Positions 17,427-42,583 of a DNA stretch of 53,143 nucleotides are shown piece after piece. The DNA comes from Lactiplantibacillus nangangensis (GTDB lineage Bacteria > Bacillota > Bacilli > Lactobacillales > Lactobacillaceae). Position numbers and translations under genes: made by a program. The notes under the pieces are model-generated. The model made no database searches and was not told the origin of the DNA. It worked only from the letters and a program-made list of their open reading frames with translations. Location of the stretch: contig NZ_BJDI01000018.1 of assembly GCF_005405065.1 (NCBI RefSeq), forward strand, positions 1 through 53,143. The letters run 5' to 3'. Every line of letters starts with the position of its first letter. Within the stretch, counting starts at the first letter, position 1.

Positions 17427-17625
17427 ACAGTTAACTAGCTGTAGGTTGTTGTTGATAGCATCGGCCGTGATGGTGGCGTTTGACCGGCGTTTTTCCGGTC
17501 TTACACCACGGACCGGCCGGGAGACTTGCGGTTTAGGAAAGGCTTCCGGGCGAGGGGCAAGACGCTCCTCAGGCTTGCCCCGGTCCCTCGGCCGCATGTT
17601 ATCAACAACAGCCGGAAGCGGAAAT
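17427..17625 (+). repeat. Dispersed structured element, copy A
   Basis: Core of about 200 bp shared with 24272, 28417, 33424 and 42385. The 5' arm (17444-17467) pairs with the 3' arm (17589-17613) in a stem of about 24 bp with one conserved bulged base; the middle has smaller hairpins (GACCGG/CCGGTC; CGAGGG/CCCTCG; GGGCAAG/CTTGCCC). Located between convergent genes. The transcribed strand is not known. Confidence 0.85.
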
Positions 17626-17652
17626 TAACAAGGTTCAACTTTAGATTGCAAC

Positions 17653-17698
17653 AAAAAATCCTCCAACCACTATCAAAAACAGTGGTTAGAGGATTTTT
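17653..17698 (-). terminator. Terminator of the opp operon
   Basis: AAAATCCTC-AACCACT pairs with AGTGGTTAGAGGATTTT. On the minus strand a T-run follows, six bases past the oppF stop. T-tracts on both sides make it usable in both directions. Confidence 0.88.
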
Positions 17699-17703
17699 AA
17701 TTG

Positions 17704-18672
17704 CTAGTTATGCGGAAAATCGGTCACTAAACCAGCTTCCTGCGCACGTTTCGTATACATTGGAATTTCGTCTTCACTGGCCCGAACAAAGTGTCCTGGG
17801 GCAATTTCGACCATCCGCCGTTGCTTGTCGTCATGTTCGCGTGAGGCGTCATAAACGACTTGCTTACGGTTACGTTCGAATTCAGGGTCGGGTACAGGCA
17901 CCGCTGAAATCAAACTCTTAGTGTAGGCATGCAATGGATGCGTGTAAACTTCATCCGCCGGGCCGATTTCCAAAATCTTCCCATAATGCATAACCCCGAT
18001 CCGGTCACTGATATACTTAACCATCGACAAATCATGCGCGATGAATAAGTAAGTCAGACCTTGCTTTTCTTGGAGCTCCTTCATCAAGTTCACGACTTGA
18101 GCTTGGATCGACACATCCAACGCAGAGATTGGTTCATCAGCGATGATGAATTTAGGTTCCACGGCCAAGGCCCGGGCAATCCCGATCCGTTGGCGTTGCC
18201 CACCAGAGAATTCATGGGGATAACGACTCGAATGGTCCTTGTTCAAACCGACCGTTTCCAGTAAGTCTTCGACCTGTTTCGTCCGATCCGCATCATCCTT
18301 GGCGAGATTATGGATATCAATCCCTTCAGCGACAATATCTTTAACTTTCATCCGTGGATTCAGTGAGGCATAAGGATCTTGGAAAATCATTTGGATTTCA
18401 CGACGAAATTCATGCATTTCAGCCTTTGTATGCAGCTTTGACACATCTTTGCCGTTGAAAATGATCTGACCATCAGTGGGTTCATACAAATGAATGATTG
18501 AACGGCCCGCCGTCGTCTTCCCAGAACCGGATTCACCAACTAAACCGAATGTTTCACCTTCGTAGATATCAAAGGAGACGTCATCAACGGCCCGGACTTC
18601 ATCTTTTTTGCCAACATTAAAATATTGCTTTAAATGATGGACTTCTAGAATTTTTTTACGTTCATCAGGCAT
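17704..18672 (-). CDS. oppF: Oligopeptide ABC transporter ATP-binding protein OppF
   Basis: One of the two nucleotide-binding subunits powering peptide import. It shows Walker A GESGSGKTT, signature FSGGQRQRIGIARAL, Walker B FIIADEP and the C-terminal oligopeptide/dipeptide extension. At 322 residues it is full length. AAGGAG lies 8 nt before the ATG. It is the last gene of oppABCDF, 5 nt after oppD. Confidence 0.95.
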   Translation of the reverse strand: MPDERKKILEVHHLKQYFNVGKKDEVRAVDDVSFDIYEGETFGLVGESGSGKTTAGRSIIHLYEPTDGQIIFNGKDVSKLHTKAEMHEFRREIQMIFQDPYASLNPRMKVKDIVAEGIDIHNLAKDDADRTKQVEDLLETVGLNKDHSSRYPHEFSGGQRQRIGIARALAVEPKFIIADEPISALDVSIQAQVVNLMKELQEKQGLTYLFIAHDLSMVKYISDRIGVMHYGKILEIGPADEVYTHPLHAYTKSLISAVPVPDPEFERNRKQVVYDASREHDDKQRRMVEIAPGHFVRASEDEIPMYTKRAQEAGLVTDFPHN

Positions 18673-18677
18673 CTTGA

Positions 18678-19754
18678 TTACTCCTTCGTCTCTTTTTTAA
18701 TCGGTGGTTCTGGTTTTTCCATCGCAGCAAACTTCTTTTGGCGCCGCACAATTTCAGCTGGTGGCGTGACTTTTGGTGCATCTGGATGTAACAACCAAGT
18801 GGCCGCATAGTGCGTGTCAGATACCTTGAAGAACGGTGGTTCTTTTTCCGTATCAATCTTCATTGCATAGTCACTCCGCGCCGCAAAGGCATCGCCAACT
18901 GGTGGGTCCAATAAATCTGGTGGCGTCCCAGGAATGGCGGTCAATGACCCACCTTCCGTGTCCAAAGTTGGCATCGAATTCAACAAGCCCCATGTATAAG
19001 GGTGTTGTGGGTTGAAGAAGATTTCATCAACCGTCCCGTATTCGACGATCTTACCGGCATACATGACCGCCACCCGATCAGCCATCCCAGCCACGACACC
19101 AAGGTCATGGGTGATAAAGATGATCGATGTATCGATCCGGTTTTGGAGATCCTTCATCAAGTCCAAAATTTGAGCCTGAATCGTGACATCCAGCGCCGTG
19201 GTTGGTTCGTCGGCAATTAAGACTTCTGGGTAGCAGACCAACGCGATCGCAATGACGATTCGTTGCCGCATCCCACCTGAGAATTGATAAGGATAGTCGT
19301 TGATTCGGCCTTCAGGATTAGTAATCCCGACCAGCTTCAACATTTCTAACGCTTGCGCGATGGCCTCCTTTTTCTTCAACCCTTTATGCTTCATTAACGG
19401 TTCGGCAATTTGCATCCCGATCCGCATCGTTGGATCCAATGACGTCATTGGATCTTGGAAAATCATGGCAATATCTTTACCACGAATATGTTGCATTTCT
19501 TTTTCAGATTTTTTAATAATATCTTCACCATGAAACATGATGCTACCGTTTTTAATGACGGCATTGGGTGCTAATAACCCCATCAGTGAACGGGTGGTAA
19601 CTGATTTACCAGAACCAGATTCACCAACGATGGCTAAGGTCTCACCCTTGCGCAAGTCGAAACTGACATCACGAATGGCTTTAACTTCGCCCGCATAAGT
19701 GTGGAAATCGATTTGGAGATTCCGCACTTCAATGACATTTTCAGGATTTTCCAT
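18678..19754 (-). CDS. oppD: Oligopeptide ABC transporter ATP-binding protein OppD
   Basis: Second ATPase subunit of the peptide importer, 358 residues. Walker A GESGSGKSV, signature FSGGMRQRIVIAIAL, Walker B VLIADEP. The C-terminal region has the typical oligopeptide/dipeptide tail, here lysine/glutamate-rich. It starts 15 nt after oppC; OppD and OppF form a heterodimer. Confidence 0.95.
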   Translation of the reverse strand: MENPENVIEVRNLQIDFHTYAGEVKAIRDVSFDLRKGETLAIVGESGSGKSVTTRSLMGLLAPNAVIKNGSIMFHGEDIIKKSEKEMQHIRGKDIAMIFQDPMTSLDPTMRIGMQIAEPLMKHKGLKKKEAIAQALEMLKLVGITNPEGRINDYPYQFSGGMRQRIVIAIALVCYPEVLIADEPTTALDVTIQAQILDLMKDLQNRIDTSIIFITHDLGVVAGMADRVAVMYAGKIVEYGTVDEIFFNPQHPYTWGLLNSMPTLDTEGGSLTAIPGTPPDLLDPPVGDAFAARSDYAMKIDTEKEPPFFKVSDTHYAATWLLHPDAPKVTPPAEIVRRQKKFAAMEKPEPPIKKETKE

Positions 19755-19769
19755 TTTGTACCGACACCC

Positions 19770-20804
19770 CTATCGTTTCGACTTTGGATCAAACGCATCC
19801 CGCATACCATCACCTAAGAGGTTAAAGGCAAGCATTAACACAATCAAGACGATTGCTGGGTACCACATTTGATATGGTAAGAATTGGAAGTTCTTTTGCC
19901 CATCAGAGATCAAGGTCCCTAATGACGCTTGTGGTGAACTAATCCCAATCCCAATATAACTCAAGAACGCTTCAAAGAAGATCGCGTTCGGAATCGTAAA
20001 CATTGTTTGAATAATGATGACCGATGATAAGTTTGGTAGCAGATGCTTCCAAGCAATCTTCGGTGCTGATTCGCCTAACGTCCGCGCTGCCAAAATGAAA
20101 TCTTGGTTCTTCAATTGCAGCGTTTGCGCCCGCGTCAGTCGGGCCATCGTAGTCCAGTTAATGATTGCCAAAGCGGCAATGATCGACGCCATCCCAGTTT
20201 TCTGGAAGGCCGTCGCCATCAAGACCATGACAACCAATGATGGGATGGACGAGAGAATTTCAATGATCCGTTGCATGAACAGATCGACTCGTCCACCCAT
20301 CCAACCGGATAGGATCCCGAACCCGACCCCAATCGTTAAATCAATCAAGGTGGCAATCAACGCAATTTCAAGTGAGACCCGAGTCCCATACATGATCCGT
20401 GCCAGTAAGTCCCGGCCTAAATAGTCGGTCCCTAAGGTGTAATGGACATCTGAACCCGCACCGGCTTGCTTGTAGGCATCAACATCTTGACCAGATTGGG
20501 TGATATGCCCGTTCAAGCCATGAATCCCGACACCCGGAATCTTGGGTGGCAAGTTCGCGTACTTTGGTGATTGCGCGTTGGGGTCATGATGATAAATTGC
20601 TTGACCCCCAAAGGCCATCAAGAACAACAGAATTAACACGATAAAACTGGTAAAAGCAGTCTTGTTGGCTTTCAGACGCCGCCAAACATCTTGCCCGAAG
20701 GTTAGAGAAGGTGCGGCGATTTTTTCATTATCGGGCCCGGCTTGTTTGTCTAACGGCTCGAAGTCGCCGGGCTTAATTTCAAGATTATTTGCATTATCTG
20801 CCAT
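19770..20804 (-). CDS. oppC: Oligopeptide ABC transporter permease OppC
   Basis: Membrane permease, 344 residues. It has a hydrophilic N-terminal extension, one early helix (FTSFIVLILLFLMAFGG), a large loop, then five helices. The EAA-type coupling loop ARTLGESAPKIAWKHLLPN contacts the ATPases. It starts 3 nt after oppB. Confidence 0.94.
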   Translation of the reverse strand: MADNANNLEIKPGDFEPLDKQAGPDNEKIAAPSLTFGQDVWRRLKANKTAFTSFIVLILLFLMAFGGQAIYHHDPNAQSPKYANLPPKIPGVGIHGLNGHITQSGQDVDAYKQAGAGSDVHYTLGTDYLGRDLLARIMYGTRVSLEIALIATLIDLTIGVGFGILSGWMGGRVDLFMQRIIEILSSIPSLVVMVLMATAFQKTGMASIIAALAIINWTTMARLTRAQTLQLKNQDFILAARTLGESAPKIAWKHLLPNLSSVIIIQTMFTIPNAIFFEAFLSYIGIGISSPQASLGTLISDGQKNFQFLPYQMWYPAIVLIVLMLAFNLLGDGMRDAFDPKSKR

Positions 20805-20807
20805 TAA

Positions 20808-21737
20808 CTAGTCCCCATTTCCACTTAAACGAATCCGCGGATCAATGATCCCGTAGACAATATCGGTCAACAATAACAGCAAGCATAAGAGCGCTGAGTA
20901 GAAAATCGTGACACCCATGATGGTTGGGTAGTCGTTCACTAGGATCGACTTAACAAATTGTTCCCCAATCCCAGGAACAGAGAAGATGTTTTCAACCACC
21001 ATTGACCCAGTCATCAAGGCTGCGGCTAATGGCCCAATCAAGGTAACCATTGGAATCAGACTATTCCGTAACGCATGGTGATAAACGATGCCGAATTTCG
21101 ATAATCCCTTGGCTTTCGCTAATTCGATATAATCGGAACTCAAGACATCGACCATGTCAGTCCGGATAAAGCGGGCGGTTTCGGCCAACGGACTCGCAGC
21201 CAGAGCCAATGTTGGTAAGATACTGTAAACAAACCCTTGCCAACCGGCCACTGGGAACCAGCCCAATTTCAAACCGAGGTAATACTGGAGCAAAATGGCT
21301 AACACGAAACTTGGGACCGCAATCCCTAAGATGGAAACCACCGTTGCGAGGCGATCAGCCCAAGTATCTTTCCGAATAGCCCCAACAGCCCCAAGAATAA
21401 TCCCGAAGATAACCCCCACGACCATCGCTTGACCACCTAATTGCATTGAAGGTCCCATCCGACTCCCAATCAAGTAACTAACGGCTTGATCAGAGAATTG
21501 GAAGGATAGCCCCAAACTACCTTTGAAAATCCCACCAATGTAAATTAGGTATTGGAGCCAGACCGGTTTGTCTAACCCATATTGGGCTAAAATTGATGCT
21601 TTTTCACTCGGCGTCAACTTAGCTTCATTTTGAAGCGGCGTCCCAGGCATTAGTTTCATTAGGAAGAACGTGGCAGTTGCCACAATGAATAATGTCAGGA
21701 ACAAGTAAAATATCCGCTTTAAGAGATATTTTCTCAT
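20808..21737 (-). CDS. oppB: Oligopeptide ABC transporter permease OppB
   Basis: Permease partner of OppC, 309 residues, six helices, with the coupling loop AKAKGLSKFGIVYHHALRNSLIP. I choose ATG 21737 (MRKYLLKRIFY, after GCGAGGA), the usual OppB N-terminus, over an in-frame codon 15 nt upstream. It follows oppA after 157 nt containing a hairpin, so it may be expressed less than the binding protein. Confidence 0.94.
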   Translation of the reverse strand: MRKYLLKRIFYLFLTLFIVATATFFLMKLMPGTPLQNEAKLTPSEKASILAQYGLDKPVWLQYLIYIGGIFKGSLGLSFQFSDQAVSYLIGSRMGPSMQLGGQAMVVGVIFGIILGAVGAIRKDTWADRLATVVSILGIAVPSFVLAILLQYYLGLKLGWFPVAGWQGFVYSILPTLALAASPLAETARFIRTDMVDVLSSDYIELAKAKGLSKFGIVYHHALRNSLIPMVTLIGPLAAALMTGSMVVENIFSVPGIGEQFVKSILVNDYPTIMGVTIFYSALLCLLLLLTDIVYGIIDPRIRLSGNGD

Positions 21738-21804
21738 TAGAATTCCTCGCATTCTATTAAATTAGCCTTAAAAAATAATGACACATTTGATTATAAAACA
21801 AAAT

Positions 21805-21835
21805 GGTAAGGATTAACAATGTGTCAATCCTTACC
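21805..21835 (-). terminator. Intercistronic hairpin between oppA and oppB
   Basis: GGTAAGGATT (21805-21814) and AATCCTTACC (21826-21835) pair perfectly around an 11-nt loop. On the minus strand ATTTTGTTTTA follows. It would act as a partial terminator or 3' stabiliser, giving more oppA than oppBCDF transcript. Confidence 0.75.
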
Positions 21836-21894
21836 CCTTCGTTTCACATTCGTTCAGTTAAAGCACACACATTAATTACTTCTCTAATTTGGCT

Positions 21895-23544
21895 TTAGTT
21901 AACGTGCATATATTTCAAGTTGTAGTTAGTACCAGCAGTATTGTAGATGATACCCTTGAACTTGGTACGCGTTAACGTTGCAGCAGCTTGTTGATAAATT
22001 GGGATGACCCCTTGATCATTCATCAATTGCTTTTCAGCTGAAACCATGTCAGACCAACGAGCACTGGTATCGTTTGAATCTGAACCTTCAGCCTTAGTGA
22101 TGGCACTATCATAAGCTGGGCTGTTGTACTTCCCATTGTTGTACGAGTTTGATGACGTGAACAATGACAAGAATGAAATTGGATCAGTAAAGTCAGCATT
22201 CCAAGCAGAGATAACTGTATCGAAGTTACCAGCTTGTGAACGAGCTAAACGAGTCTTAAATGGCACGTTTTGGTTGGTAACTGACATCCCAGGTAATTTT
22301 TCCCAAGCGCCTTGGATGTATTCAGTGGTCTTCTTGGCACCATCAGTATCGTCAGAAAGTAACTTGACAGATAACTTGGTTTCGCCAATTTCTTTCATAC
22401 CTTCTTTAAACAATTGCTTAGCCTTAGCTTGGTTGTATTCAACTGAACTTGCAACGTAAGCATCGCTTGTAAAGTCTTTACCAGTCTTAGGGTTCTTAGC
22501 TAAGTCTTGTGAGACATAACCTTTAGAAACGGTTGAACCATCACCAAGGGTATTCTTGACGAATTCTTTCCGGTTGATAGCTAAGGACATTGCTTGACGA
22601 ATCTTCTTGTTCTTGAAGGCTTTCGCTAAGGTCTTATTGCTGTCATCACGGTTAAATTCAACATAGAAGGTTGACGCAGTCTTGCGGATCAAGTAATCCT
22701 TGTTGGTCTTGTAGTTCTTAACTTGCGTACTTGAAAGTGTCGTGTAATCAACTTTGTTTGAGTTGAATAAGTTCAAACCAGTTGATGGGTCCTTAACAAC
22801 TTGATAGTTGATAGCGGACATCTTGACGTTCTTCTTGTCCCAGTAGTTGTTGTTCTTCTTCAAGGACCAAGTTAAGTTAGTCCCTTTCCAGCCAGTCATC
22901 TTGTAAGGGCCATTGTAGACCATGTCGGCACTGGTAGTCCCATACTTAGAACCATACTTCTTAACCGCACTTTCACTTTGTGGGAAGAAGTTAACAAAGC
23001 CCATCAATTTCTTGAAGTAAGCAATTGGCTTGTCCAAGGTAACGGTCAACTTGTAATCGCCGTCAGCTTTGATGCCTAAAGTTGAAACTGCTTTTTTACC
23101 ATTAGCAATTTGATCGGCGTTCTTGATGCCTGAATATAAGTATGCGTATTGTGACGCAGTCTTTGGATCAACAGTTCGTTGCCAGCCATAAACGAAATCT
23201 TTAGCGGTAACTTTATCCCCGTTACTCCATTTTGCGTTCTTCCGTAAGGTGAACGTATATGTTTTCCCGTCGTTAGAAACTTTAGTTGCTTTAGCAATCC
23301 CAGGTGTAATTGAACCGTTCTTCCCAATCCGATATAACCCTTCGTTGGTGTTGTTCAACATATCTGAACTAACAACGTCAGTTGACTTTGACAAGTCCAT
23401 TGTTGGTAATTCGGCTGATTCAGTCCAATTAGCAACTTGCTTAGAGCTTGAAGATGAAGAACTACTCTTCGATCCACAGGCAGCTAAGAATAGCAAGGAC
23501 GCGCCAGCAACGGCGGTAACTTTTGCAGCTGTCTTTAAATTCAT
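21895..23544 (-). CDS. oppA: Oligopeptide-binding lipoprotein OppA
   Basis: Extracellular solute-binding protein (SBP_bac_5 family) that captures peptides for OppBCDF. The signal peptide ends in the lipobox LAAC (LLFLAACGSK), so the mature protein is lipid-anchored. A Ser-rich linker follows the cysteine. Family features include NGPYKMTGW, EFNRDD and IRQAMSLAINR. The 549-residue length is normal. GAGGGG lies 10 nt before the ATG. First gene of the operon. Confidence 0.96.
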   Translation of the reverse strand: MNLKTAAKVTAVAGASLLFLAACGSKSSSSSSSSKQVANWTESAELPTMDLSKSTDVVSSDMLNNTNEGLYRIGKNGSITPGIAKATKVSNDGKTYTFTLRKNAKWSNGDKVTAKDFVYGWQRTVDPKTASQYAYLYSGIKNADQIANGKKAVSTLGIKADGDYKLTVTLDKPIAYFKKLMGFVNFFPQSESAVKKYGSKYGTTSADMVYNGPYKMTGWKGTNLTWSLKKNNNYWDKKNVKMSAINYQVVKDPSTGLNLFNSNKVDYTTLSSTQVKNYKTNKDYLIRKTASTFYVEFNRDDSNKTLAKAFKNKKIRQAMSLAINRKEFVKNTLGDGSTVSKGYVSQDLAKNPKTGKDFTSDAYVASSVEYNQAKAKQLFKEGMKEIGETKLSVKLLSDDTDGAKKTTEYIQGAWEKLPGMSVTNQNVPFKTRLARSQAGNFDTVISAWNADFTDPISFLSLFTSSNSYNNGKYNSPAYDSAITKAEGSDSNDTSARWSDMVSAEKQLMNDQGVIPIYQQAAATLTRTKFKGIIYNTAGTNYNLKYMHVN

Positions 23545-23602
23545 AAAAACCCAACCCCTCTAAAATGTAGTGTGTGTGCTTTTCCCTCGAAAAGTTAAAG
23601 TA

Positions 23603-23954: not shown

Positions 23955-23960
23955 GTATCC

Positions 23961-24090: not shown

Positions 24091-24122
24091 ACTTACAGGA
24101 TTAAGGTTGAAAGCGCCAAAGC

Positions 24123-24176
24123 TGCCATGAAGACAGTAATACTGGCGCTGGTTATGTCCAGAGCAACTTCATATAG
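24123..24176 (+). repeat. 5' accessory module of dispersed element copy B
   Basis: Resembles the modules at 17270 and 42320. ATGAAG at its start pairs with CTTCAT at its end; in the 42320 copy the same place has ATGAATCT with AGATTCAT, so pairing is kept while the sequence differs. Confidence 0.45.
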
Positions 24177-24271
24177 CTCTTTACGCCGTCAGCCAGAATC
24201 AAGCCTTGCTGACACGGCAAACCAATTCTGACTGATTCCGCTAGATTTAAACAATTAACTAATCATTCAAA

Positions 24272-24471
24272 CCAGTTGACTAGCTGCAGGTTGTTGTTGA
24301 GTGCATCGGCCGTGTGGGTGGCGTTTGACCGGCGATTTTCCGGTCTTACGCCACGGATTGGCCGGGAGACTTGCGGTTTTTGCAAGGCTTTCGGGCGAGG
24401 GGCAAGACGCTCCTGAGGCTTAGCCCGGTCCCTCGGCCGCATGCACTCAACAACAACCGGAAGCGGCAATT
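24272..24471 (+). repeat. Dispersed structured element, copy B
   Basis: Same core as copy A. The terminal stem is perfect except for the conserved bulge. The segment TGAGTGCAT on the left is matched by ATGCACTCA on the right, replacing the TGATAGCAT/ATG.TATCA pair of copies A and C. Lies between oppA and the DUF1634 gene. Confidence 0.85.
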
Positions 24472-24562
24472 ATCAATCATTTTTCACAGCTTAATTAGGA
24501 CTCACAGTGAGATGGATCAGTGGTTTTGAACTTTCAACCTTTCAATCAATTAAAAAAACAGT

Positions 24563-28416: not shown

Positions 28417-28615
28417 CAGTTGACTAGCTGGAGGCTGTTGTTGATAGCATCGGCCGTGATGGTGGCGTTTGACCGGCGTTTTTCCGGTCTTACACCACGG
28501 ACCGGCTGGGAGACTTGCGGTTTTTGCAAGGCTTCCGGGCGAGGGGCAAGACGTTTTTCAGGCTTGTCCCGGTCCCTCGGCCGCATGCTATCAGCAACAA
28601 CCGGAAGCGGCAGTT
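28417..28615 (+). repeat. Dispersed structured element, copy C
   Basis: Same core as the other copies. Its final bases (CGGCAGTTA) run into the stop codon of the minus-strand gene 28614-30323, so the repeat edge appears to coincide with the gene end. Confidence 0.85.
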
Positions 28616-30482: not shown

Positions 30483-31337
30483 TTAGCCCAAGAACGCTGT
30501 CATAACACTACCCGCGACGATCAGGACCAGCCCGATAATCGTTAACCGCAATTCTCGCGACGATTTAGTTTCATGTAAGACTAACAAACCACCCAAAGTC
30601 GAAATGACAACACTGACCTGCGTGATCACGTAAGCCGTGGCGACCCCGTTGGCTTTTGCAGAAAAAATATACGCTAACGCCGATACCCCGAAAATCAGGC
30701 CGGCAAACGCGTTTAGCCAACTCGTCCGTTCCTTGAAGGCGCGACCTCGCCCACTAATCAGCGCGTATAACACGGCGGCCAAGAACATGCCCAGCATTTG
30801 TGGGAAGAAAATAGCCGTCCCAGAAGCTGAAACAGCTTTAGGGAGTGCACTATAGACCCAGTAACCAACCGTCGTTGGCACTAGAATGACCAAACCACTC
30901 ATTAGGCCGTTACGCCCATCCGGACTATCGGTAACCGCAGTCAATGCGACGCCAATAATCATCAAAACGATTGCTGCAAAGCCCACGATTTTTGCGCCAT
31001 CACCGGCCCATTCACCAAACATCAGCACCCCAATCACGGAGGTCCCGACTAATTGGAGGCCAGTTGAGATTGGCATGGTGGTACTAACACCCATGCGTGA
31101 ATAAGACGTATATTGGCCGATTTGACCTAAGACCCAAAAAGCACCCGACAAGGCACTCAGCCAAAACGTGCCAGTGTCGACACTCGGCCGTACAGCGAGT
31201 TGCACGATTAACCCGACAATCAACGCCCCGACCCCCGTTCCTAAAGTTTGGTTGACGGGTTTACCACCTAATTTTGAAATTAATAACGGATTTAAGCCCC
31301 ACCCTAACGCGGGAATGAGGGCAATCAAGATGTTCAA
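30483..31337 (-). CDS. GRP-family sugar uptake transporter (GlcU/RbsU-like)
   Basis: A 284-residue protein of ten short membrane helices, belonging to the glucose/ribose porter family of the drug/metabolite superfamily. Typical segments are ALGWGLNPLLISKLGG at the N-terminus and SRMGVSTTMPISTGLQLVG in the middle. Members import glucose or ribose by proton symport. GGAGG lies before the ATG. Monocistronic, divergent from the surface protein at 31594. Confidence 0.85.
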   Translation of the reverse strand: MNILIALIPALGWGLNPLLISKLGGKPVNQTLGTGVGALIVGLIVQLAVRPSVDTGTFWLSALSGAFWVLGQIGQYTSYSRMGVSTTMPISTGLQLVGTSVIGVLMFGEWAGDGAKIVGFAAIVLMIIGVALTAVTDSPDGRNGLMSGLVILVPTTVGYWVYSALPKAVSASGTAIFFPQMLGMFLAAVLYALISGRGRAFKERTSWLNAFAGLIFGVSALAYIFSAKANGVATAYVITQVSVVISTLGGLLVLHETKSSRELRLTIIGLVLIVAGSVMTAFLG

Positions 31338-31359
31338 AGCGAAGCCTCCTAATTAAATA

Positions 31360-31376
31360 GACAATAATCGATTGTC
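31360..31376. promoter_or_regulatory. Small palindrome upstream of the sugar transporter
   Basis: GACAAT-5 nt-ATTGTC, just ahead of the ribosome-binding site of the gene at 30483 on the minus strand. Possible operator. Confidence 0.3.
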
Positions 31377-31503
31377 AAAAAATCGCAATAGCACTAGTTT
31401 AACATATGTCAGTATCAAAGGTTAACTAAAGTTGAATGATAACCCCGGACGCTAGTTGGAATTTCAGGGCGATCAAACCCTTGGTAACCAGCAAAAATAA
31501 TAA

Positions 31504-31531: not shown

Positions 31532-31593
31532 TATGGAGATAAATGAAACGTTTACAAGCGTTGCACTTAAATTTGATTACAGAGGTCAATCTA

Positions 31594-33237
31594 ATGAAAA
31601 AGAATGTCAGACTATGGCGTACGACGCTTAGTCTATGGGGTGTTTTAGGGGGATTAATGCTATGCACACCGGTGATGGTCAAAGCGGCCACCACTAATGC
31701 CACGAGCACAGTTAACAGTAGTGCCAAGGTCACGCCTTCCGCCGCTAAATCCAGCGCTGTCGCTAATCAGTCGAAGGCGACTAGCAGCGTTGCTAAATCA
31801 AGCAACGTGACAACCAGAGCCAAGGTAACTAGTGCCACTGCCCGCTCAAGTCAAGTCAGTAGCCAAGCTAGTTCTAGCCGCAAGACAAGTTCATCATCGC
31901 AGGCAACTAGCTCCAGTGTAAAACCTAAACCAGTTTATACCACACGGACTACGACTAAATCGATGAAGGCACAAGCGTTCTTTACCATTAAAGACGGCTA
32001 TACATATGCCATCTCGGGACCAACTAGTCACGTGACGATGAAGGACAATCATAAACTGAGCAATTACAATCAAACGACCTGGACGGCAACCGCTCAAACC
32101 GACGTCAAGTCACCGAATGGCCACGTCACCCGCTATTATTTAGTCAAGAATGCCCGCAATGGTGCGCAAGGCTGGGTCGCGACAGCTAACTTAAAAGCTG
32201 GCCGTAATTATCAAGTCTCCTCAATTCGGGGCTTAAAGACTCGCAACTACGTCTACGCCAAAGCTGACAAAGTTTACCAGTTAAGTGGCAAACCAGCCGC
32301 AATGAAATGGATTCATGGCAAATCACTGGCGAAGAATCAAACTTATAAAGCCACGAAACAACGGACGTATTATCGTCAAGGCAAAGCCTATATCTATTAT
32401 TACGTCACGAGTACAAAAGGCGTCAAAGGCTGGGTCTGGCACAAACGCTTAAAACCCGGGACTTATTATGACGTTGCGAAAAAGCAGCGGGCCATCAAGA
32501 GCCAGCTTCAAAAATATCTCAACTCGGTTACCAAAGATGGGACTAGTGAAGTCGCGTTCTACAATTTGTCACCCGTCAAAGGCAGTAAGGCAGCCAAGGC
32601 CGCTCATCCGACGATCTATTCAGCCGGTAAACTGGCAGTCAATTCGCGTGGTAGTCATGTCACGACGTCAGCCAGCACTTATAAATTATACATTGCAGCC
32701 TACGTTTTACATTTAAAGCAACAACACAAATGGTCGTGGTCCAAAGCCAATACTAAAGGCATGCGCAATATGATCCTGATCAGCGATAACAATTATCCAG
32801 TCAGCATCCTGAATCGCTATGGCCGCAGCAACATTAATCATTGGCTCGCTTCACAAGGCTACTATGGTAACCCCTTCAGTCGCGTCCGTAACACTCGCAC
32901 AACCGCCAATAGTCTAGTAAAAGTGCTCCGCGACTTGCAAGATGGTAAGCGTGCCTTTAGCAATAAGAGTGATCGTGGTAAGGTTTTGAGCCTAATGGGC
33001 AAGCAAGTTTATCGGCGCGGCATTCCAACTGGCGCTGCCCAAGCGATGCGAGGCACCAAAGTTCAAGATAAAGTTGGCTTCTTAAATGACAACAACGGCG
33101 ATGCCGGCATTGTCACAATGCCAAATGGTCAACGTTATATCTTAGCTGTCTTAACTTGGGGCCATCACCAGTCTGGTTTCTCCGGTTACCCACGGATTGC
33201 TAAAATTACTAAGAACGTCCAAAAAATCGTCTATTGA
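31594..33237 (+). CDS. Secreted penicillin-binding/beta-lactamase-fold protein with SH3-like wall modules
   Basis: A 547-residue exported protein. Signal peptide to about residue 30 (cut near VKA); Ser/Thr/Ala-rich linker to ~110; two SH3/GW-type modules (~115-285), each with a WxATA...YYLVKN...GWV pattern; then a class A beta-lactamase-like domain. That domain shows S361-T-Y-K364 and S397-D-N399, which match SxxK and SDN, while the KTG box appears as KVG in QDKVGFLND. Such proteins in lactobacilli are wall-bound serine hydrolases of unknown substrate; lactamase activity is not implied. ATG 31594 is preferred over 31543 because the signal peptide follows it directly and GAGGT precedes it. Confidence 0.78.
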   Translation: MKKNVRLWRTTLSLWGVLGGLMLCTPVMVKAATTNATSTVNSSAKVTPSAAKSSAVANQSKATSSVAKSSNVTTRAKVTSATARSSQVSSQASSSRKTSSSSQATSSSVKPKPVYTTRTTTKSMKAQAFFTIKDGYTYAISGPTSHVTMKDNHKLSNYNQTTWTATAQTDVKSPNGHVTRYYLVKNARNGAQGWVATANLKAGRNYQVSSIRGLKTRNYVYAKADKVYQLSGKPAAMKWIHGKSLAKNQTYKATKQRTYYRQGKAYIYYYVTSTKGVKGWVWHKRLKPGTYYDVAKKQRAIKSQLQKYLNSVTKDGTSEVAFYNLSPVKGSKAAKAAHPTIYSAGKLAVNSRGSHVTTSASTYKLYIAAYVLHLKQQHKWSWSKANTKGMRNMILISDNNYPVSILNRYGRSNINHWLASQGYYGNPFSRVRNTRTTANSLVKVLRDLQDGKRAFSNKSDRGKVLSLMGKQVYRRGIPTGAAQAMRGTKVQDKVGFLNDNNGDAGIVTMPNGQRYILAVLTWGHHQSGFSGYPRIAKITKNVQKIVY

Positions 33238-33423: not shown

Positions 33424-33625
33424 AAGTTCAACAAAATCGTCGCAGGTTGCCGCTGAGGGTCTCGGTCGTGATGTTGGCGTTAGATTGGCGGTTTTTGCCG
33501 ATCTTACACCACGGACGGTCCGGGACAATTGCGGGTTATGCAACTGTTCCGGGCGAGGGGCAAGACGTTTCTCAGGCTTGGCCCGGTCCCACGACCGCAG
33601 ACTCTCAGCGGCAACCGGAGACACC
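33424..33625 (+). repeat. Dispersed structured element, copy D (divergent)
   Basis: The most diverged copy. The terminal stem differs in sequence from the others (GGTTGCCGCTGAG on the left, CTCAGCGGCAACC on the right) yet still pairs fully, and so does the next segment CGGTCGTG/CACGACCG. The central CGGGCGAGGGGCAAGACG block is unchanged. No 5' accessory module is seen. Confidence 0.8.
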
Positions 33626-37053: not shown

Positions 37054-37276
37054 AGTCGGCCCTCCCTTTTTGGATAATTAAATTTAAATTGACTGATATT
37101 GGCTTAAGCATGGCACCTAAAAGGGCACATTGATTAAGCCGAACGCGTTTTAATTATAACCTATTTCCAATTTTACGGGTACTATCCTGAAGTTTGTGAC
37201 GAAAACTATTTAAATTTGATGAGAATAATGGTAATTTAGTTAAGAAGAACGAAAAATCAAAGGAGTGTCTTAACTT

Positions 37277-38203
37277 ATGTCACGAAAAATTGCTGTTATC
37301 GGCATGGGGCACGTTGGCTCAACGGTTGCCCATTACATCGTTGCGGGTGGTTTTGCGGACGATTTAGTCCTCATCGACCCTAAAACAGAAAAAGTAACCG
37401 CGGACGCCATCGATTTTGAAGATGCCATGCCAAACTTACCGACCCACACCAATATCATCGTCAACGACTATCAAGCGTTGAAGGATACGGATGTCATTAT
37501 TTCAGCCTTAGGCAACATCAAGTTGCAAGATAACCCTAATAATGATCGCTTCGCTGAATTACCATTTACTAGCGCTCAGGTTAAAGACGTCGCCGGTAAA
37601 ATCAAGGCGAGTGGCTTCAACGGCATCATCGTTGCCATCACGAACCCGGTAGATGTCATTACCTCAATCTATCAAGCCGTCACCGGACTACCTAAGAATC
37701 ATGTGATTGGGACTGGGACGTTGTTGGACTCCGCACGAATGAAACGTGCTGTTGCCAAAGAACTGCACCTCGACTCGCGTTCGGTCACCGGTTACAACTT
37801 GGGTGAACATGGGAACTCCCAATTCACCGCATGGTCAACCGTTCGCGTATTGGGTCAACCAATCACTAAAATTGCCGCTGAGCGCGGTTTGGACTTAGTC
37901 GCACTCGACAAGGCTGCCCGCCAAGGTGGGTTTGCCATTTTCCATGGTAAGAAATACACGAGTTACGGCGTCGCAACCGCAGCTGTCCGTTTGGCCAATG
38001 TGGTGTTGAATGACGCCTTGACTGAACTCCCTGTTTCTAATTACCGTGAAGAATACGGCGTCTACCTCTCCTATCCCGCAGTCGTCGGTCGCGACGGAAT
38101 CGTCGAACAAGTTCAACTCGACTTAACCGAAGAAGAACTCAAAAAGTTACAAATTTCCGCTGATTACATCAAAACTAAGTTTGCCGAAAGCCAAGCAAAC
38201 TAA
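37277..38203 (+). CDS. L-2-hydroxyisocaproate/L-lactate dehydrogenase family enzyme
   Basis: NAD-dependent enzyme reducing 2-oxo acids to L-2-hydroxy acids. The 308 residues show GMGHVGS for NAD binding, catalytic H178 in NLGEHGNSQF, and NPVDVIT. The regions SALGNIKLQ, GTGTLLDSARM and YTSYGVATAAVR parallel L-hydroxyisocaproate dehydrogenase of Weissella confusa rather than classic LDH. It therefore probably acts on branched or longer 2-oxo acids from amino acid breakdown. AAAGGAG precedes the ATG. Monocistronic. Confidence 0.85.
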   Translation: MSRKIAVIGMGHVGSTVAHYIVAGGFADDLVLIDPKTEKVTADAIDFEDAMPNLPTHTNIIVNDYQALKDTDVIISALGNIKLQDNPNNDRFAELPFTSAQVKDVAGKIKASGFNGIIVAITNPVDVITSIYQAVTGLPKNHVIGTGTLLDSARMKRAVAKELHLDSRSVTGYNLGEHGNSQFTAWSTVRVLGQPITKIAAERGLDLVALDKAARQGGFAIFHGKKYTSYGVATAAVRLANVVLNDALTELPVSNYREEYGVYLSYPAVVGRDGIVEQVQLDLTEEELKKLQISADYIKTKFAESQAN

Positions 38204-38222
38204 CAAACAGCATTTTAAACTA

Positions 38223-38268
38223 AAAGAACTGTTCAGAAGTAGCGACACTTTCTGAACAGTTCTTTTTG
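38223..38268 (+). terminator. Terminator of the hydroxy acid dehydrogenase gene
   Basis: AAAGAACTGTTCAGAA (38223-38238) pairs perfectly with TTCTGAACAGTTCTTT (38250-38265), then Ts. Confidence 0.92.
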
Positions 38269-38337
38269 TGATTTTATGATTAAAACGTGGCACAACAGAC
38301 AACTTACCCCGCCTACTGTGCCGGACTGAACTTTTTA

Positions 38338-38532
38338 TTAACTAAATTCCATATCGTGATTGTTTTGCTTGGCTAAGGTCGCAACGATCTGTAGCCAATC
38401 TTTCATGCTGACCATGACCGCTGAATCTTGGGTATTGGGATTTTCCACCTCAATGGATTCGTGACCTTGGTTTACGATCGTTAATAGCTGGTTAATATTT
38501 TTCTTAGCCAGTGCAGTGGTGACTTTTTTCAT
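38338..38532 (-). CDS. Phd/YefM-like antitoxin, apparently orphan
   Basis: A 64-residue protein fitting the Phd/YefM fold: an N-terminal ALAKKNINQLLTIVNQGHESIEV section (helix and strand) and SAVMVSMKDWLQIVATL, like the NAVLVSEEDW motif of YefM. I choose ATG 38532 with GGGAG upstream. No RelE/Doc-type toxin follows within 100 bp before the convergent dehydrogenase, and none precedes, so no partner is present. It could act as a stand-alone regulator. Confidence 0.6.
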   Translation of the reverse strand: MKKVTTALAKKNINQLLTIVNQGHESIEVENPNTQDSAVMVSMKDWLQIVATLAKQNNHDMEFS

Positions 38533-38704
38533 ATTCGCCATCTCCCAACTTGTTGAATGATTGAAGATATTGTGCCCCAAACGTGCGGACACGTCAAGCA
38601 TTTTCGCAAGCTTTTTGACGACTCGGAAATAACTTGAATCTTGGTGAACAGTTTACACTAACCATTCCTCAGTTGCACCTAATTCGTTCGCAATTAACTG
38701 AAAA

Positions 38705-39079
38705 TTAACCTTGATGGCGTTCAAACATTGTTTTTAGGACATTTCGAATAATCTTAAGCTGTTCAGCGGATACTGGTTGACCATGATATTCAAAGCGATT
38801 TTTTCGATTCTCAATCACCTTTTTTAAATCAACCGCCGTGGTCGTGGGAGTTTCAGCCGTCTTGCCTTCTTTACCAACTAACTTGGCATACGTCGTTCCC
38901 AAGACTTGAGCGACCTCGTTCAGGGTTCCTTTAGACGGGGTATGCTTCTTCCAACTATAAATAGCGCTGGCGCTCAACCCGGCTAACGTGGCAACTTCAG
39001 CTAAGGTCAACCCATTTTTCTTGGCAAATTTACGGATGTTTTTCAATAATTCGCCATTATCTAACTTCATAAACGCCAT
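38705..39079 (-). CDS. XRE-family helix-turn-helix regulator
   Basis: A 124-residue protein. The helix-turn-helix is at about residues 18-45 (LTLAEVATLAGLSASAIYSWKKH). A spacer follows, and a C-terminal helical region (VSAEQLKIIRNVLKTMFERH) may mediate oligomerisation. Start ATG 39079 follows GAGGTG. It resembles phage or mobile-element repressors, but no prophage genes flank it. It reads in the same direction as the antitoxin-like gene 170 bp downstream. Confidence 0.7.
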   Translation of the reverse strand: MAFMKLDNGELLKNIRKFAKKNGLTLAEVATLAGLSASAIYSWKKHTPSKGTLNEVAQVLGTTYAKLVGKEGKTAETPTTTAVDLKKVIENRKNRFEYHGQPVSAEQLKIIRNVLKTMFERHQG

Positions 39080-39319
39080 ACACGGCACCTCTTCGCTTTT
39101 AGGTTACGTTATGAAATATACCGAGATTTTTGCTAAAAAGCAAGCCGTAATTCGTTTTATTCTTGAATAACACCTGCTCGCAAAAGGCATCCGTTACAAC
39201 TGCAATCCAAGCCCCCATGATTTAATCAAATGGCAACGCCCCTGAAACGTTTTTGCAATCTAAGACTCCTATGCTATGGGTATAAAATTACAGGTCTCAT
39301 AGTGAAAGGATTGGTCCAA

Positions 39320-40051
39320 ATGAAACGCTTTGCCGCTATCATCGTTATGTTGTTTGCTAGTCTCACTTTGTTCTTCGCAACACCTCAACCTGTGGCAGCG
39401 AAAGCAACCAATCGGATTTTAACCACGACTGGCTTCGCGCGGACCGCCTTTGTCATGAAACGCACAAACGGAACCGTTGTTCAATTTCGCGGACCCGCTC
39501 AAAACTTCCAATTTAAAACAATTCACTTACTCCGAAACTATGGTCAAACAACTTGGTTCGCCACGCAAAAACGGCGTCTACGTTTGAAGACCGGTCAGCA
39601 ACAGACTTATTATTACGTCACTAACAGTCAGCGGACGGCCGCTGGTTGGGTCTGGGATAATAATTTGAAACGTTCAACTCATTCTTTTACGAACTTAATG
39701 ACCGTGGCTAAGACCAAAGTTGGTGACCGTTACCGCTGGGGCGCGGTTGGACCGAATCGCTTCGATTGTTCCGGCTATACCCAGTACGTTTTCAAACATG
39801 GGGCTAGTAAAAATCTGCCTCGGCTGGCACAAGCACAATATAGTCACTATCGAAAAGTCGGCCGTTATCAAGCCAAACAAGGCGACTTGATTTTCTTTGG
39901 TAACAGTACCCGGTCAATCACGCACGTTGGCATCTACACCGGCCACAATCAAATGATCAACGCCCAAGACAGCGGCGTTAAATATTCAAAGGTCTACGTT
40001 CCATGGTGGCACGTCGTTGGTTACTCACAACCCGTCAACTTCAGTTCTTAA
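39320..40051 (+). CDS. Secreted NlpC/P60 peptidoglycan hydrolase with SH3-like module
   Basis: A 243-residue exported cysteine peptidase, probably cutting D-Glu-diamino acid bonds in peptidoglycan stem peptides. Signal peptide to about residue 30 (ending VAA); one SH3/GW-like module (TTWFATQKR...YYYVTNSQRTAAGWVWDNNLK); then the NlpC/P60 domain with C150 in RFDCSGYT and H202 in ITHVGIY. ATG 39320 follows AAAGGATT; a longer frame from 39230 has no signal logic. Monocistronic. Confidence 0.88.
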   Translation: MKRFAAIIVMLFASLTLFFATPQPVAAKATNRILTTTGFARTAFVMKRTNGTVVQFRGPAQNFQFKTIHLLRNYGQTTWFATQKRRLRLKTGQQQTYYYVTNSQRTAAGWVWDNNLKRSTHSFTNLMTVAKTKVGDRYRWGAVGPNRFDCSGYTQYVFKHGASKNLPRLAQAQYSHYRKVGRYQAKQGDLIFFGNSTRSITHVGIYTGHNQMINAQDSGVKYSKVYVPWWHVVGYSQPVNFSS

Positions 40052-40067
40052 CCTACCACCATCTAAA

Positions 40068-40104
40068 AAAGGCGAGTCTGGAAATTTATGCCAGACTCGT
40101 CTTT
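40068..40104. terminator. Bidirectional terminator between the NlpC/P60 and MutS-like genes
   Basis: AAAGGCGAGTCTGG pairs with CCAGACTCGTCTTT (one G-U pair). It lies between convergent genes and has A/T tracts on both sides. Confidence 0.85.
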
Positions 40105-40107
40105 CAT

Positions 40108-41625
40108 TTAGTTTAATCGTCTACGAGCAGCCACCAAAATTTCTGGCGCTAACCCTAAACGTTCGGCCAACCAAATCGCTTCACTAGCGCCGACTTGATT
40201 GAGTAACAACTGGTAAGTTGGTTCCAACGTCTGCCGATCAAAGGCCATTGTCGCCGTCATAAAAGTTGGGCAACTGACGGCATAACTTTTAATCGCGCTA
40301 AAATGCGTGGTCGCAACGATGGTCGCCTGTTGTGCGCGCAGGTACTCAATAATCGCGATACTCAAGGCAGAACCCTCTTCTGGATCAGTCCCACTCCCAA
40401 TTTCATCTAACAAAATCAGCGCGTTTGGTTGAATCGCATCGGTCATCGTAACCAAGGTCGTCATTTCAGCCGCAAAGGTACTCAACTGCGCCGCTAAGCT
40501 TTGATTATCACCAATGTCGAGCCAGACTTGCGCAAACACGGGAATCTCCGTGCCAGCCGCAGCCGGAACTTCCAATCCGACTTGCACCATTAACACAAAC
40601 AGCGCAATCGTTTTGAGGACGACCGTTTTACCACCAGAGTTAGCCCCAGTGATCATTAGACCTTGATGCGAAGCAAGCTCGACGTCTAACGGCACCGCTT
40701 TTTGACCAAGTAACGGATGGCGGCCATGCCGAATATTCAAGTGTTGATTTGTATTCAACTTAGGCTGACAGCTATCGGTCTGTAATGCATACTCTCCACG
40801 GGCTATAATCTGGTCTAACTGACTCATCAACTGTTGATTTTGTAACAGTTGGGGCCACCGCTGTTGAACGTCGCCTGTCAGTGTGGCTAAGATTTGATAA
40901 ACTTCAGCGCTTTCTTCCGCAATCAAACCGGCAAGCACTTGACCACGTTGACTCGCCATCTTAGGCTCAAAGAAGACCGTCGACCCGGTTCCGGATTGAT
41001 CAATGATTTGACCGGGAAAACGGGTCTTATAACTCGATTTCAACTGAATACAAACGTGATCATTTCGCGTAATCAACCGACGACTTTGAACCGCTTGCGG
41101 ATGTTTTTGAATGAATTGGGTCAGTGCCGCCTGAACTTGTTGGCGTTGCTGGCTAATTTTTTGCCGAACGCGTGCTAATTCAGGCGTAGCTTGGTCGGCG
41201 ACTTGATCATGCGTAATCTCCGCCGTCAAACGTTGCTGCAATCCACTTAAACCTGTGACTGGTGACATTAACGCCACCAAGTTTGGCGCAATTGCCGCAT
41301 GTTGTCGTAACGTGGTCATCAAACGCTGGCCACTTGTCAAGAAGGCCCCAATTAGGCCAAGTTGTGCCGCATTCAGTAATAATCCTTGATCGAGTTTCGT
41401 TTGAATCGCAGTCAATTGATCCAGATTAAAAAACGTCAACATGACGGAATTTAGCAGTAGCTGATGCGCTTCATTGGTCAAGTTCAGTTGTGCTTGAACC
41501 GCCGCTAAATCGGTCATAATTGGACTTGCTTTAAGCTGATCTGCGGCCACCGCACTGTGCGTATAAGTCGCAACCGTCATCAAGACTTGATCAAGCTGTG
41601 TTAATTGTTTAATATTTTTCTGCAT
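40108..41625 (-). CDS. MutS-family ATPase lacking mismatch-recognition and Smr domains
   Basis: A 505-residue protein with the MutS core (clamp/lever helices) and ATPase domain only. Walker A at 327-334 (GANSGGKT), Walker B ILLDEIGSGTDP, and ATTHFSAIKSYA near the end. It has no N-terminal mismatch-binding domain, and it ends soon after the ATPase with no Smr nuclease, unlike full MutS2 (about 780 residues). It is thus a MutS2-related stand-alone protein, perhaps acting on DNA junctions or collided ribosomes; this is a guess. AAGGAG precedes ATG 41625, and a leader ORF plus hairpin lies just upstream. Confidence 0.8.
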   Translation of the reverse strand: MQKNIKQLTQLDQVLMTVATYTHSAVAADQLKASPIMTDLAAVQAQLNLTNEAHQLLLNSVMLTFFNLDQLTAIQTKLDQGLLLNAAQLGLIGAFLTSGQRLMTTLRQHAAIAPNLVALMSPVTGLSGLQQRLTAEITHDQVADQATPELARVRQKISQQRQQVQAALTQFIQKHPQAVQSRRLITRNDHVCIQLKSSYKTRFPGQIIDQSGTGSTVFFEPKMASQRGQVLAGLIAEESAEVYQILATLTGDVQQRWPQLLQNQQLMSQLDQIIARGEYALQTDSCQPKLNTNQHLNIRHGRHPLLGQKAVPLDVELASHQGLMITGANSGGKTVVLKTIALFVLMVQVGLEVPAAAGTEIPVFAQVWLDIGDNQSLAAQLSTFAAEMTTLVTMTDAIQPNALILLDEIGSGTDPEEGSALSIAIIEYLRAQQATIVATTHFSAIKSYAVSCPTFMTATMAFDRQTLEPTYQLLLNQVGASEAIWLAERLGLAPEILVAARRRLN

Positions 41626-41641
41626 AATTTCTCCTTGCAAT

Positions 41642-41697
41642 GTACAGCAACGGAGAATCGTTCTATATTAGTGCCTATTCCATCCGTAGTGCTGTAC
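41642..41697 (-). promoter_or_regulatory. Leader hairpin in front of the MutS-like gene
   Basis: GTACAGCA (41642-41649) pairs with TGCTGTAC (41690-41697), extended by ACGGA/TCCGT across a 2-nt bulge. The stem ends 5 nt from the ribosome-binding site of the gene at 41625, and starts at the stop codon of the leader ORF. Confidence 0.5.
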
Positions 41698-41751
41698 TTA
41701 AGATTGACACATTGCTGTGCCGGACATAGTGACTTGCTTCAGCGCACTCAT
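41698..41751 (-). CDS. Possible 17-residue leader peptide
   Basis: Minus-strand ORF MSALKQVTMSGTAMCQS, with a strong AAGGAG 8 nt before its ATG. Its stop codon abuts the hairpin at 41642-41697. A translated short ORF followed by a hairpin beside the next gene's ribosome-binding site is the layout of translational or transcriptional attenuators. No homology is claimed. Confidence 0.4.
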   Translation of the reverse strand: MSALKQVTMSGTAMCQS

Positions 41752-41861
41752 TAAATTCGCTCCTTATTTTTTCTCGGGGTTAACTGTAACACAACGACAA
41801 ACAGTTCGTAAACTTTGGCCTTCCTTGTGAGTACAGTGTGGATTTGAAATTGTGCACTATT

Positions 41862-42014
41862 GCCGCCTACCGGTCGGGGTGTTTAGGGCTGGAACGCTGT
41901 GAATCGGTTTCGAGCCAAAGGACGGTCTCGAAAGCCGATTTTTGACTAACCGCGGAAAATTCCCGCGCTAAGTCAAATCCCACGGCTGAACCCTAAACAT
42001 CCCGACCTCTCGGC
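41862..42014. repeat. Structured element with three-way-junction layout
   Basis: Outer stem: 17 bp (41872-41888 with 41991-42007, one G-U), extended by GCCG/CGGC across an internal loop. Inside are two hairpins: AATCGG-TTTCGAG with CTCGAAA-G-CCGATT (41902-41940), and TTTGACT...AGTCAAA enclosing CGCGG/CCGCG (41941-41977). No coding frame fits. No other copy is seen in this window. It is probably a structured RNA or a genomic repeat. Confidence 0.6.
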
Positions 42015-42319
42015 TAAATTCAGTAGAATCAATTAGATAACAGTGATGACTCTTGATTGATGCAACTAGCAATCTACGTCGCTCAGACTCATTACGACAA
42101 TTTTCCGGATGAGATTAGTATTTGAGACTAACAATCAAGACTATTCGAATAGCTGAGACCAACGCAATAAATACCACTTATCCACCACTATTTTTGATGG
42201 CCATTACCACTTCATGATGGACATGAATACATCTTGAACAGCTGCTTGGGCCAAGAATATTACCCATTTTTCTGCTTTCACTGATTGACATTTTCACTGC
42301 ACTAAAATAAACAATCCTA
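42015..42319. other. Intergenic stretch with no recognised feature
   Basis: AT-rich non-coding DNA between the junction-like element and the repeat module. I see no gene, terminator or strong promoter. Confidence 0.5.
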
Positions 42320-42370
42320 TCATGAATCTAATCATACTGGTGTTAGATATGCCCAAAATAGATTCATACC
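42320..42370 (+). repeat. 5' accessory module of dispersed element copy E
   Basis: ATGAATCT (42322-42329) pairs with AGATTCAT (42360-42367) around the conserved ACTGGTGTTAGATATGCCC-type loop; related to 17270 and 24123. Confidence 0.5.
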
Positions 42371-42384
42371 AATTATCGTGCAAA

Positions 42385-42583
42385 ACAGTTGATTAGCTGT
42401 AGGCTGTTGCTGATGACATTGGCCGTGTGGGTGGCGTTTGACCGGCGTATTTCCGGTCTTACACCACGGACTGACCGGGAGATTTGCGGTTTTGGCAAAG
42501 CTTCCGGGCGAGGGGCAAGACGGGCCTCAGGCTTGACCCGGTCCCTCGGCCGCATGCCATCAGCAACAACCGGAAGCGGTATT
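42385..42583 (+). repeat. Dispersed structured element, copy E
   Basis: Same core as copies A-D, with 5' arm GGCTGTTGCTGATGACAT and 3' arm ATGCCATCAGCAACAACC. The CTGAT/ATCAG part of the stem is a matched change relative to the TTGAT/ATCAA of copy A. Lies between two co-directional minus-strand genes. Confidence 0.85.

Follow-up and report, generated by a model that had tools for sequence, protein, structure and literature searches.

The window, that is the whole stretch of Lactiplantibacillus nangangensis DNA analysed here (53,143 nucleotides; NCBI RefSeq assembly GCF_005405065.1, contig NZ_BJDI01000018.1, positions 1 to 53,143), carries copies of a short intergenic element whose core is a folded domain of two subtypes, type I and type II. 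Domains were located with two covariance models: R1, a type I model of 184 positions built from 36 copies, and R2, a model of the second subtype with 151 positions built from 22 weak R1 matches. A preliminary description, made from the letters alone, had reported five copies of a ~200 base-pair (bp) element; R1 recovered all five, each on the plus strand with an E of ~1e-47 or lower, and the start positions given there lie 9-14 bases upstream of the R1-match starts. The domains and the one complete element located in the window are as follows.

17437..17619, plus strand: copy A, type I folded domain (R1, 202.5 bits)
24282..24464, plus strand: copy B, type I folded domain (R1, 193.5 bits)
24100..24544: whole element around copy B, 445 bp, with ends ATTAAGGTTGAAAG ... 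CTTTCAACCTTTCA that resemble IS4-type terminal repeats with 2 mismatches each
28426..28608, plus strand: copy C, type I folded domain (R1, 205.5 bits; fold z -8.7)
33438..33622, plus strand: copy D, type I folded domain; the prfC stop codon is ~64 bases away (R1, 186.8 bits)
42395..42577, plus strand: copy E, type I folded domain (R1, 196.7 bits)
41866..42008, minus strand: sixth domain, type II, forming a '-+' pair with copy E across a gap of ~380 bases (R2, 82.2 bits; R1, 45 bits)

Since transposon-like ends flank copy B at ~24100 and ~24544, the ~200-bp core there is part of a longer element; no target duplication is recognisable at the ends of that element.

The terminal stem, described as about 24 bp with one bulged base, consists of 18+6 = 24 bp with a bulged C on the 3' side, and the matched arm changes quoted for copies A/C, B, D and E are present in the sequence. 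The parts of the fold, as placed on the plus strand of copy C, are listed with the evidence for each.

28427-28429 with 28606-28608, plus strand: outer helix (sequence and fold)
28430..28432, plus strand: GGA of a 3x3 GGA/GGA internal loop below the stem, partner GGA at 28603-28605 (sequence and fold)
28433..28456, plus strand: 5' side of the 24-bp terminal stem (model and fold)
28578..28602, plus strand: 3' side of the terminal stem, with the bulged C at 28584 (model and fold)
28462..28498, plus strand: hairpin 1, GTGG...CCAC (model, covariation and fold)
28499..28502, plus strand: GGAC helix closing hairpins 2 and 3, partner GTCC at 28572-28575 (model and covariation)
28506..28538, plus strand: hairpin 2 (model and covariation)
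28543..28570, plus strand: hairpin 3, CAAG ACG...CAGG CTTG (model and covariation)

Folded as RNA, the plus strand of copy C reaches -101.4 kcal/mol (z -8.7); because none of 200 shuffles was as good, the fold is not a product of chance. The minus-strand RNA (-88 kcal/mol, z -7.3) and the plus strand folded as DNA (-52.3 kcal/mol, z -7.2) were evaluated in the same way. Most of the 36 type I copies in the alignment have the 3x3 GGA/GGA internal loop, or a near variant, separating the long stem from the short outer helix, and a loop of this kind was also seen by eye in type II copies of genomes G068 and G144. A possible pseudoknot, a candidate found by eye, joins a GAGG to the pyrimidine-rich loop of hairpin 3.

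Five copies by themselves are insufficient as proof of a selected fold. The five in the window are real; the genome total is not five, as the whole genome yields 106 R1 matches (150 of 678 candidates scored), and a BLAST search with copy A scored 40 matches out of 107 candidates. The search of related genomes with a covariance model, proposed as a check in the preliminary description, covered 397 Lactobacillaceae genomes from 40 genera: R1 matched 92 of them, in 11 genera, and R2 124, in 15 genera. Within the host's own genus R2 matched 19 of 21 genomes and a DNA search 12 of 21. In an order-wide draw R1 matched 16 of 395 genomes, all of them Lactobacillaceae. The carriers among the matches listed, identified by pattern scan, include Lactiplantibacillus fabifermentans, daoliensis, herbarum, xiangfangensis and pingfangensis, an uncultured Lactobacillus bin, and Furfurilactobacillus rossiae and milii. 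Genomes G009, G328, G354, G240 and G035 hold 136-150 R1 matches each, with at most 150 candidates scored per genome, and among 15 other genomes G345 has 35, G101 has 15 and the remainder have 1-8.

Type II, first seen as weak R1 matches, is ~130-160 nucleotides (nt) long with two main hairpins and the motifs GTGAAATT, GGYCGA, GTGCCCAC and CGTTCCAG. Weak R2 matches are not necessarily type II, since R2 also scores the five type I copies of the window at 21.7-32.8 bits. At locus L318 (also L319 and L321; genome G014) type II domains stand in series, ~260 bases apart, within longer repeats.

That the domain belongs to no named family was borne out as far as tested. Rfam 15 gave 0 families above the gathering cut-off in the window, and at E up to 10 in five relatives' loci none fell on the folded domains, the six weak matches lying elsewhere. 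A plasmid collection held no match to three core queries and a phage collection none to one, the number of carriers' plasmids in these collections being left unchecked; viral contigs held no match to the exact type I pattern, and none of the 12 matches to a looser type II pattern was confirmed by the covariance model. No account of such a folded-element family was found in the literature by title or start of abstract, in a search that left most subscription journals uncovered, and the family is apparently a repeat of lactic acid bacteria new to description. A true T-box leader (RF00230, 94.2 bits) lies outside the folded domains at L019:2047-2285.

Covariation was measured on model-fitted alignments, with shuffles that leave the relatedness of the copies in place. 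For type I (134 R1 matches, 125 distinct, six of the rows being antisense echoes of stronger matches) all 63 modelled pairs are doubly changed, 92.7% of cells pair vs 66.5% after shuffling, and the covariation score is 0.650 vs 0.184 shuffled and 0.075-0.101 with slid partners. For type II (103 R2 matches, 95 distinct, five of the rows being weak matches to the type I copies of the window) all 37 modelled pairs are doubly changed, 97.2% of cells pair vs 69.1%, and the score is 0.699 vs 0.194 shuffled and 0.044-0.096 slid. RNAalifold, run on a MAFFT alignment of 36 copies made without regard to structure, predicted 48 pairs, and double changes are present at 37 of these. With every modelled pair doubly changed, far above the controls, the earlier suggestion of selection on a folded RNA or single-stranded DNA is supported as far as tested.

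No frame of at least 150 amino acids lies over copies A-E. A coding origin was considered and rejected: the only check made was that for such frames, and the covarying helices and the length changes between subtypes argue against it.

A G·U pair on the named strand is an A·C mismatch on the other, so that equal counts are expected if neither strand mattered. Counts were made on 119 of the 134 type I rows and 90 of the 103 type II rows, after echoes, weak type I matches and duplicates were dropped. Type II shows 148 G·U vs 20 A·C among 3181 cells and type I 288 vs 124 among 7227 cells (238 vs 123 without one G·U-rich pair); taken pair by pair, 44 type I pairs favour G·U, 13 favour A·C and six are equal. 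Among 19 near-identical copies of genome G144 there are 10 G·U vs 1 A·C (p 0.012, though some changes are common to several copies). Of the four sets counted, three (type I, type II and G144) thus have more G·U than A·C; the fourth, the single-sided changes of the own genome, is discussed below. As single-stranded DNA of the same polarity would prefer G·T too, the strand bias favours RNA without proving it.

Within single genomes, conservation is clearly higher in the domain than around it in all three compared, the host's own, G144 and G012. Own-genome comparisons used the best BLAST hits to copy A, 40 of the 106 matches for changes and 41, with copy D added, for flanks. The 41 copies average 89% identity in the domain, and 63% and 53% in the 35 alignment columns on its two sides; in the 40 copies, stems are 5.0% off consensus vs 9.5% at unpaired sites, with 25 compensated double changes vs 3.9 after shuffling. 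Six G144 copies show 90-100% identity per window in the domain, and 76% and 59% just outside. In 19 further copies (of 20 chosen for one length class) the 160-nt domain is 89-100% identical per 12-nt window, with one window below 94%, and the adjoining windows are at 77% and 52% and those farther out at 12-69%. Change counts in G144, on 19 of 21 copies, gave 10 single changes to G·U, three single broken pairs and three fully compensated pairs, each in a single copy, over 122 paired positions, and 16 changes over 41 unpaired positions. Arms of at least 80 bits make up 94 of the 108 in G144 and eight are below 60 bits; few decayed copies were found there, but strongly decayed ones escape a model search. 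The seven copies of G012 are 100% identical in 8 of 11 domain windows, 86% in one hairpin loop and 93-94% in the 5' outer stem; the flanks there are 92% and 81-82% identical next to the domain and fall gradually to 33-74%, so that the domain edge is less sharp than elsewhere.

Matched changes could also arise from mutation, by template switching that perfects imperfect palindromes, together with gene conversion and without selection. Repeats are known conversion substrates, and two nearby double changes in one G144 copy (L398) look like a single event. This process would not, however, keep the bulged C, the GGA/GGA loop and the junctions unpaired and conserved, nor would it make the G·U bias strand-specific. 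Variation in near-identical domains peaks in the hairpin loop and at unpaired sites, where conversion would erase it too; gene conversion could add to the core identity but would not spare hairpin loops. We consider a purely mutational origin highly improbable.

The domain is often doubled and inverted, with the two 5' ends facing each other across a shared centre. Grouping 179 of 186 matches at <600 bases (four antisense echoes and three short matches left out, some loci included twice under different names) gave 123 elements: 51 '-+', two '++', one '--', one '--+', 68 single and 0 '+-', with gaps of 17 to 462 bases inside '-+' pairs. On the 2.4-Mb contig of G144, 106 of the 108 arms, the two weakest dropped, form 77 elements, of which 25 are '-+', two '-++', 50 single and 0 '+-'. 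The fold and the selection proposed in the preliminary description stand; the inverted pairing, the second subtype, the copy number and the transposon-like framing set out below had been missed there.

Element placement is uneven along G144:C1 (Kolmogorov-Smirnov 0.27 from the contig start, with no dnaA among the long frames of the first 3 kb), and on G001:C1, which starts at dnaA, 15 of 19 listed elements lie in the origin-proximal half (p 0.019). At G144 loci L384, L389, L390, L393, L397 and others, the spacer upstream of the domain 5' end holds a long hairpin followed by a T-rich stretch, which is terminator-like.

With genes called simply as longest frames, the 113 elements that have a gene on either side lie in 70 tandem, 31 convergent and 12 divergent gaps; 231 background gaps of at least 100 bases without an element comprise 135 tandem, 38 convergent and 58 divergent ones. 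An ordinary cis-regulatory RNA (riboswitch, T-box or other leader) or an intrinsic terminator would likewise be intergenic, GC-rich and folded. A leader is impossible, however, for the 31 elements between convergent genes, the neighbour genes differ among the five window copies, and Rfam has no match. No T-run is present at the end of the type I domain (...CCGGAAGCGGCA), which therefore lacks the GC-rich hairpin followed by a U-run of an intrinsic terminator; such an identity is scarcely plausible. The domain could also be a non-coding RNA or ribozyme that acts in trans and is produced from many redundant loci, with the transposon ends serving only to spread this dispersed gene family. Such an RNA would suit the complex multi-branched fold, the constraint on junction sequence as well as stems, and the few decayed copies in G144. 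It is nonetheless quite unlikely, as some pairs are just 17-40 bases apart with little space for two promoters, and neither ~100 copies nor the '-+' layout would be necessary.

The evidence for mobility comes chiefly from genome G001, where the copies compared are 95-99% identical and end in CTAAAGGTTGAAAG (or a one-base variant) and CTTTCAACCTTTAG; three copies measured are 362, 529 and 538 bp long. Both ends are present at 13 of 16 loci examined, and direct repeats of 7-10 bp, read by eye and in two cases with one mismatch, occur at 10 of these 13. The same ends were found at locus L309 of G190, in another genus (g5), with the direct repeat ACTAAATAC, and at two loci of G209. Locus L270 of G001 holds a complete IS4-family element of 1.57 kb with the same ends, CTAAAGGTTGAAA / TTTCAACCTTTAG, and the duplication (G)ATAGGAG; its 457-amino-acid protein scores above the NCBIfam cut-off for an IS4-family transposase (NF049925). 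Of eight transposase loci examined, five are flanked by ends of G001 type with at most 3 mismatches. A search of 41 loci for such ends (at most 1 mismatch) gave one near match. Genome G328 and genus g16 showed no convincing shared motif outside the domain, apart from ~20 bases in four related G328 copies. A terminator-like hairpin lies just within the left end of the L270 element (L270:1459-1500).

In G001 and G190 the element has the ends of IS4-family insertion sequences, with short direct repeats on their outer sides. A transposase of this kind therefore most probably mobilises it in trans, and that the element is moved by a transposase in these two genera is, in our judgement, very probable. 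It is short and lacks a transposase gene, it shares terminal inverted repeats with autonomous IS4-family elements (in G001, G190 and G209), and it has target site duplications in G001 and at L309 of G190, as is characteristic of miniature inverted-repeat transposable elements (MITEs). The family thus looks like a MITE by build in two genera and is MITE-like elsewhere; by layout it resembles bacterial interspersed mosaic elements (BIMEs), and by constraint a structured RNA.

Taken together, the comparative sequence evidence would fit a MITE-type family that owes its spread to IS4-type transposases and whose folded domain stays under selection, probably as RNA; we put the chance that this whole reading is right at about one in two. 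The element would be a short non-coding mobile unit, enclosed in two genera by terminal inverted repeats and, where a second domain is recognisable, built of two inverted folded domains, mostly of 130-190 nt, with their 5' ends facing. An IS4-type transposase of the same or a related genome would mobilise it in trans. The domain would act as RNA, presumably transcribed by read-through from either side; given the '-+' layout, a transcript over a complete pair meets the antisense copy first and the sense copy last, so that the effect would be independent of orientation. That the sense domain acts on read-through transcripts we propose only tentatively. Least certain is its effect on its own transcript, which may be that of a 3'-end stabiliser or of an insulator between neighbouring genes; with either role, dozens of copies could be tolerated by the host and in part retained.

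Several observations weigh against this reading. In the 40 own-genome copies the single-sided stem changes are about equal, 34 G·U to 27 A·C, a parity compatible with neutral decay of many copies there. G·U makes up just 4% of type I cells overall, a share that seems low for RNA. The copies compared were picked from the top by score or similarity, which inflates core identity, and the flank comparisons have no baseline for the alignment of unrelated flanks. Transposase relatives occur in just 9 of 34 genomes tested, some of them broken and none in the host's own genome. Direct repeats beside the domains of 32 pairs (26 from other genera) show no excess over swapped pairs, and the outer sequences of G068 and G144 differ from G001-type ends; IS4-type mobility is for these reasons shown for two genera only. 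Finally, a single recognisable domain is found in 68 of the 123 elements and in 50 of the 77 in G144, and in 4 of the 123 two neighbouring domains point the same way.

Some of the same observations would suit a purely selfish element without a host role, in which the fold is a single-stranded DNA hairpin for transposition or replication, as in repetitive extragenic palindromes (REPs), BIMEs and IS200-type elements. The low G·U share of type I and the lack of strand preference in the own-genome changes are consistent with it, as are the high copy number, the T-rich type I hairpin loops, the likeness of '-+' pairs to BIMEs, and a plus-strand DNA that also folds well beyond its shuffles (z -7.2). 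The position of copy D, moreover, is not common to relatives: no domain is found there in the prfC loci of 20. Nevertheless, the ends with target duplications are ordinary IS4-type inverted repeats, which in G001 lie on the 3' side ~50-70 bases beyond the domain, and a DDE transposase of the IS4 family needs no folded arm. In type II, G·U far exceeds A·C, although single-stranded DNA would likewise prefer G·T, and the domain stays similar where the surroundings have diverged, in the own genome and in G144. A purely selfish hairpin is accordingly regarded as unlikely.

Small interspersed repeats of bacteria are usually viewed as decaying debris with simple hairpins. The present domain contrasts with this in its complex fold with 63 covarying pairs, its ~100 copies in several genomes, its recurrence across genera and its diverging surroundings; it is a structured domain without an Rfam 15 match in 92 (R1) and 124 (R2) of 397 genomes of one bacterial family. 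It is conceivable, though somewhat doubtful, that this is a bacterial counterpart of short interspersed nuclear elements (SINEs) turned useful, a large RNA domain spread by transposases over whole genomes and selected at dozens to ~100 or more loci per chromosome; many Lactobacillaceae genera would then share a family-wide, orientation-independent RNA module. The question of parasite or working RNA becomes directly testable, as the selection signal can be read copy by copy within single genomes.

To our knowledge, the bcr repeats (bcr1-bcr18) of the Bacillus cereus group are the closest published kind; they are likewise intergenic and present in high copy number. According to the part of the account cited here, bcr1-3 are MITE-like, secondary structure is conserved in bcr10 and bcr18, expression is described for approximately half of the copies, and bcr3 is linked to longer mRNA half-life (PMC3446304). 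They belong to another bacterial group and are compared here by description, not by sequence; that part of the account mentions neither an IS4-type origin nor the inverted pairing of a covarying domain (PMC3446304). The insertion sequence at L270 resembles the element in its terminal repeats and its 7-8 bp duplication; it differs in carrying a transposase, and R1 found no folded domain in its locus. REPs and BIMEs share with the element inverted pairs of a folded unit, an intergenic position and many copies. REPs are described as palindromes of 20-40 bp (PMC3733652, in part), whereas the domains here are ~130-190 nt long, beyond the REP size, with several helices and with target duplications in two genera. 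RUP and BOX of Streptococcus pneumoniae are, in the section of the source used, small interspersed repeats, as here (PMC3049150). Their ends are other than those of the present element. RUP is presumably mobilised by a transposase acting in trans, and the folds of RUP and BOX are much simpler than the folded domain here.

Around copy D, a frame with a Beta-lactamase2 domain (window 31543-33237) lies beside the copy, between prfC and region 31001-31400; a match to this region is found at most ~510 bases from the prfC end in 14 of the 20 relatives' loci. In two relatives (loci L296 and L297) the prfC match has one internal TAA each, as counted by program. Elsewhere in the window, a long imperfect inverted repeat with 49-nt arms 6 bases apart occupies 16344-16447, and at 48898-49110 an 82-base direct repeat with a T-run at its end is present in two copies, 131 bases apart and 94% identical.

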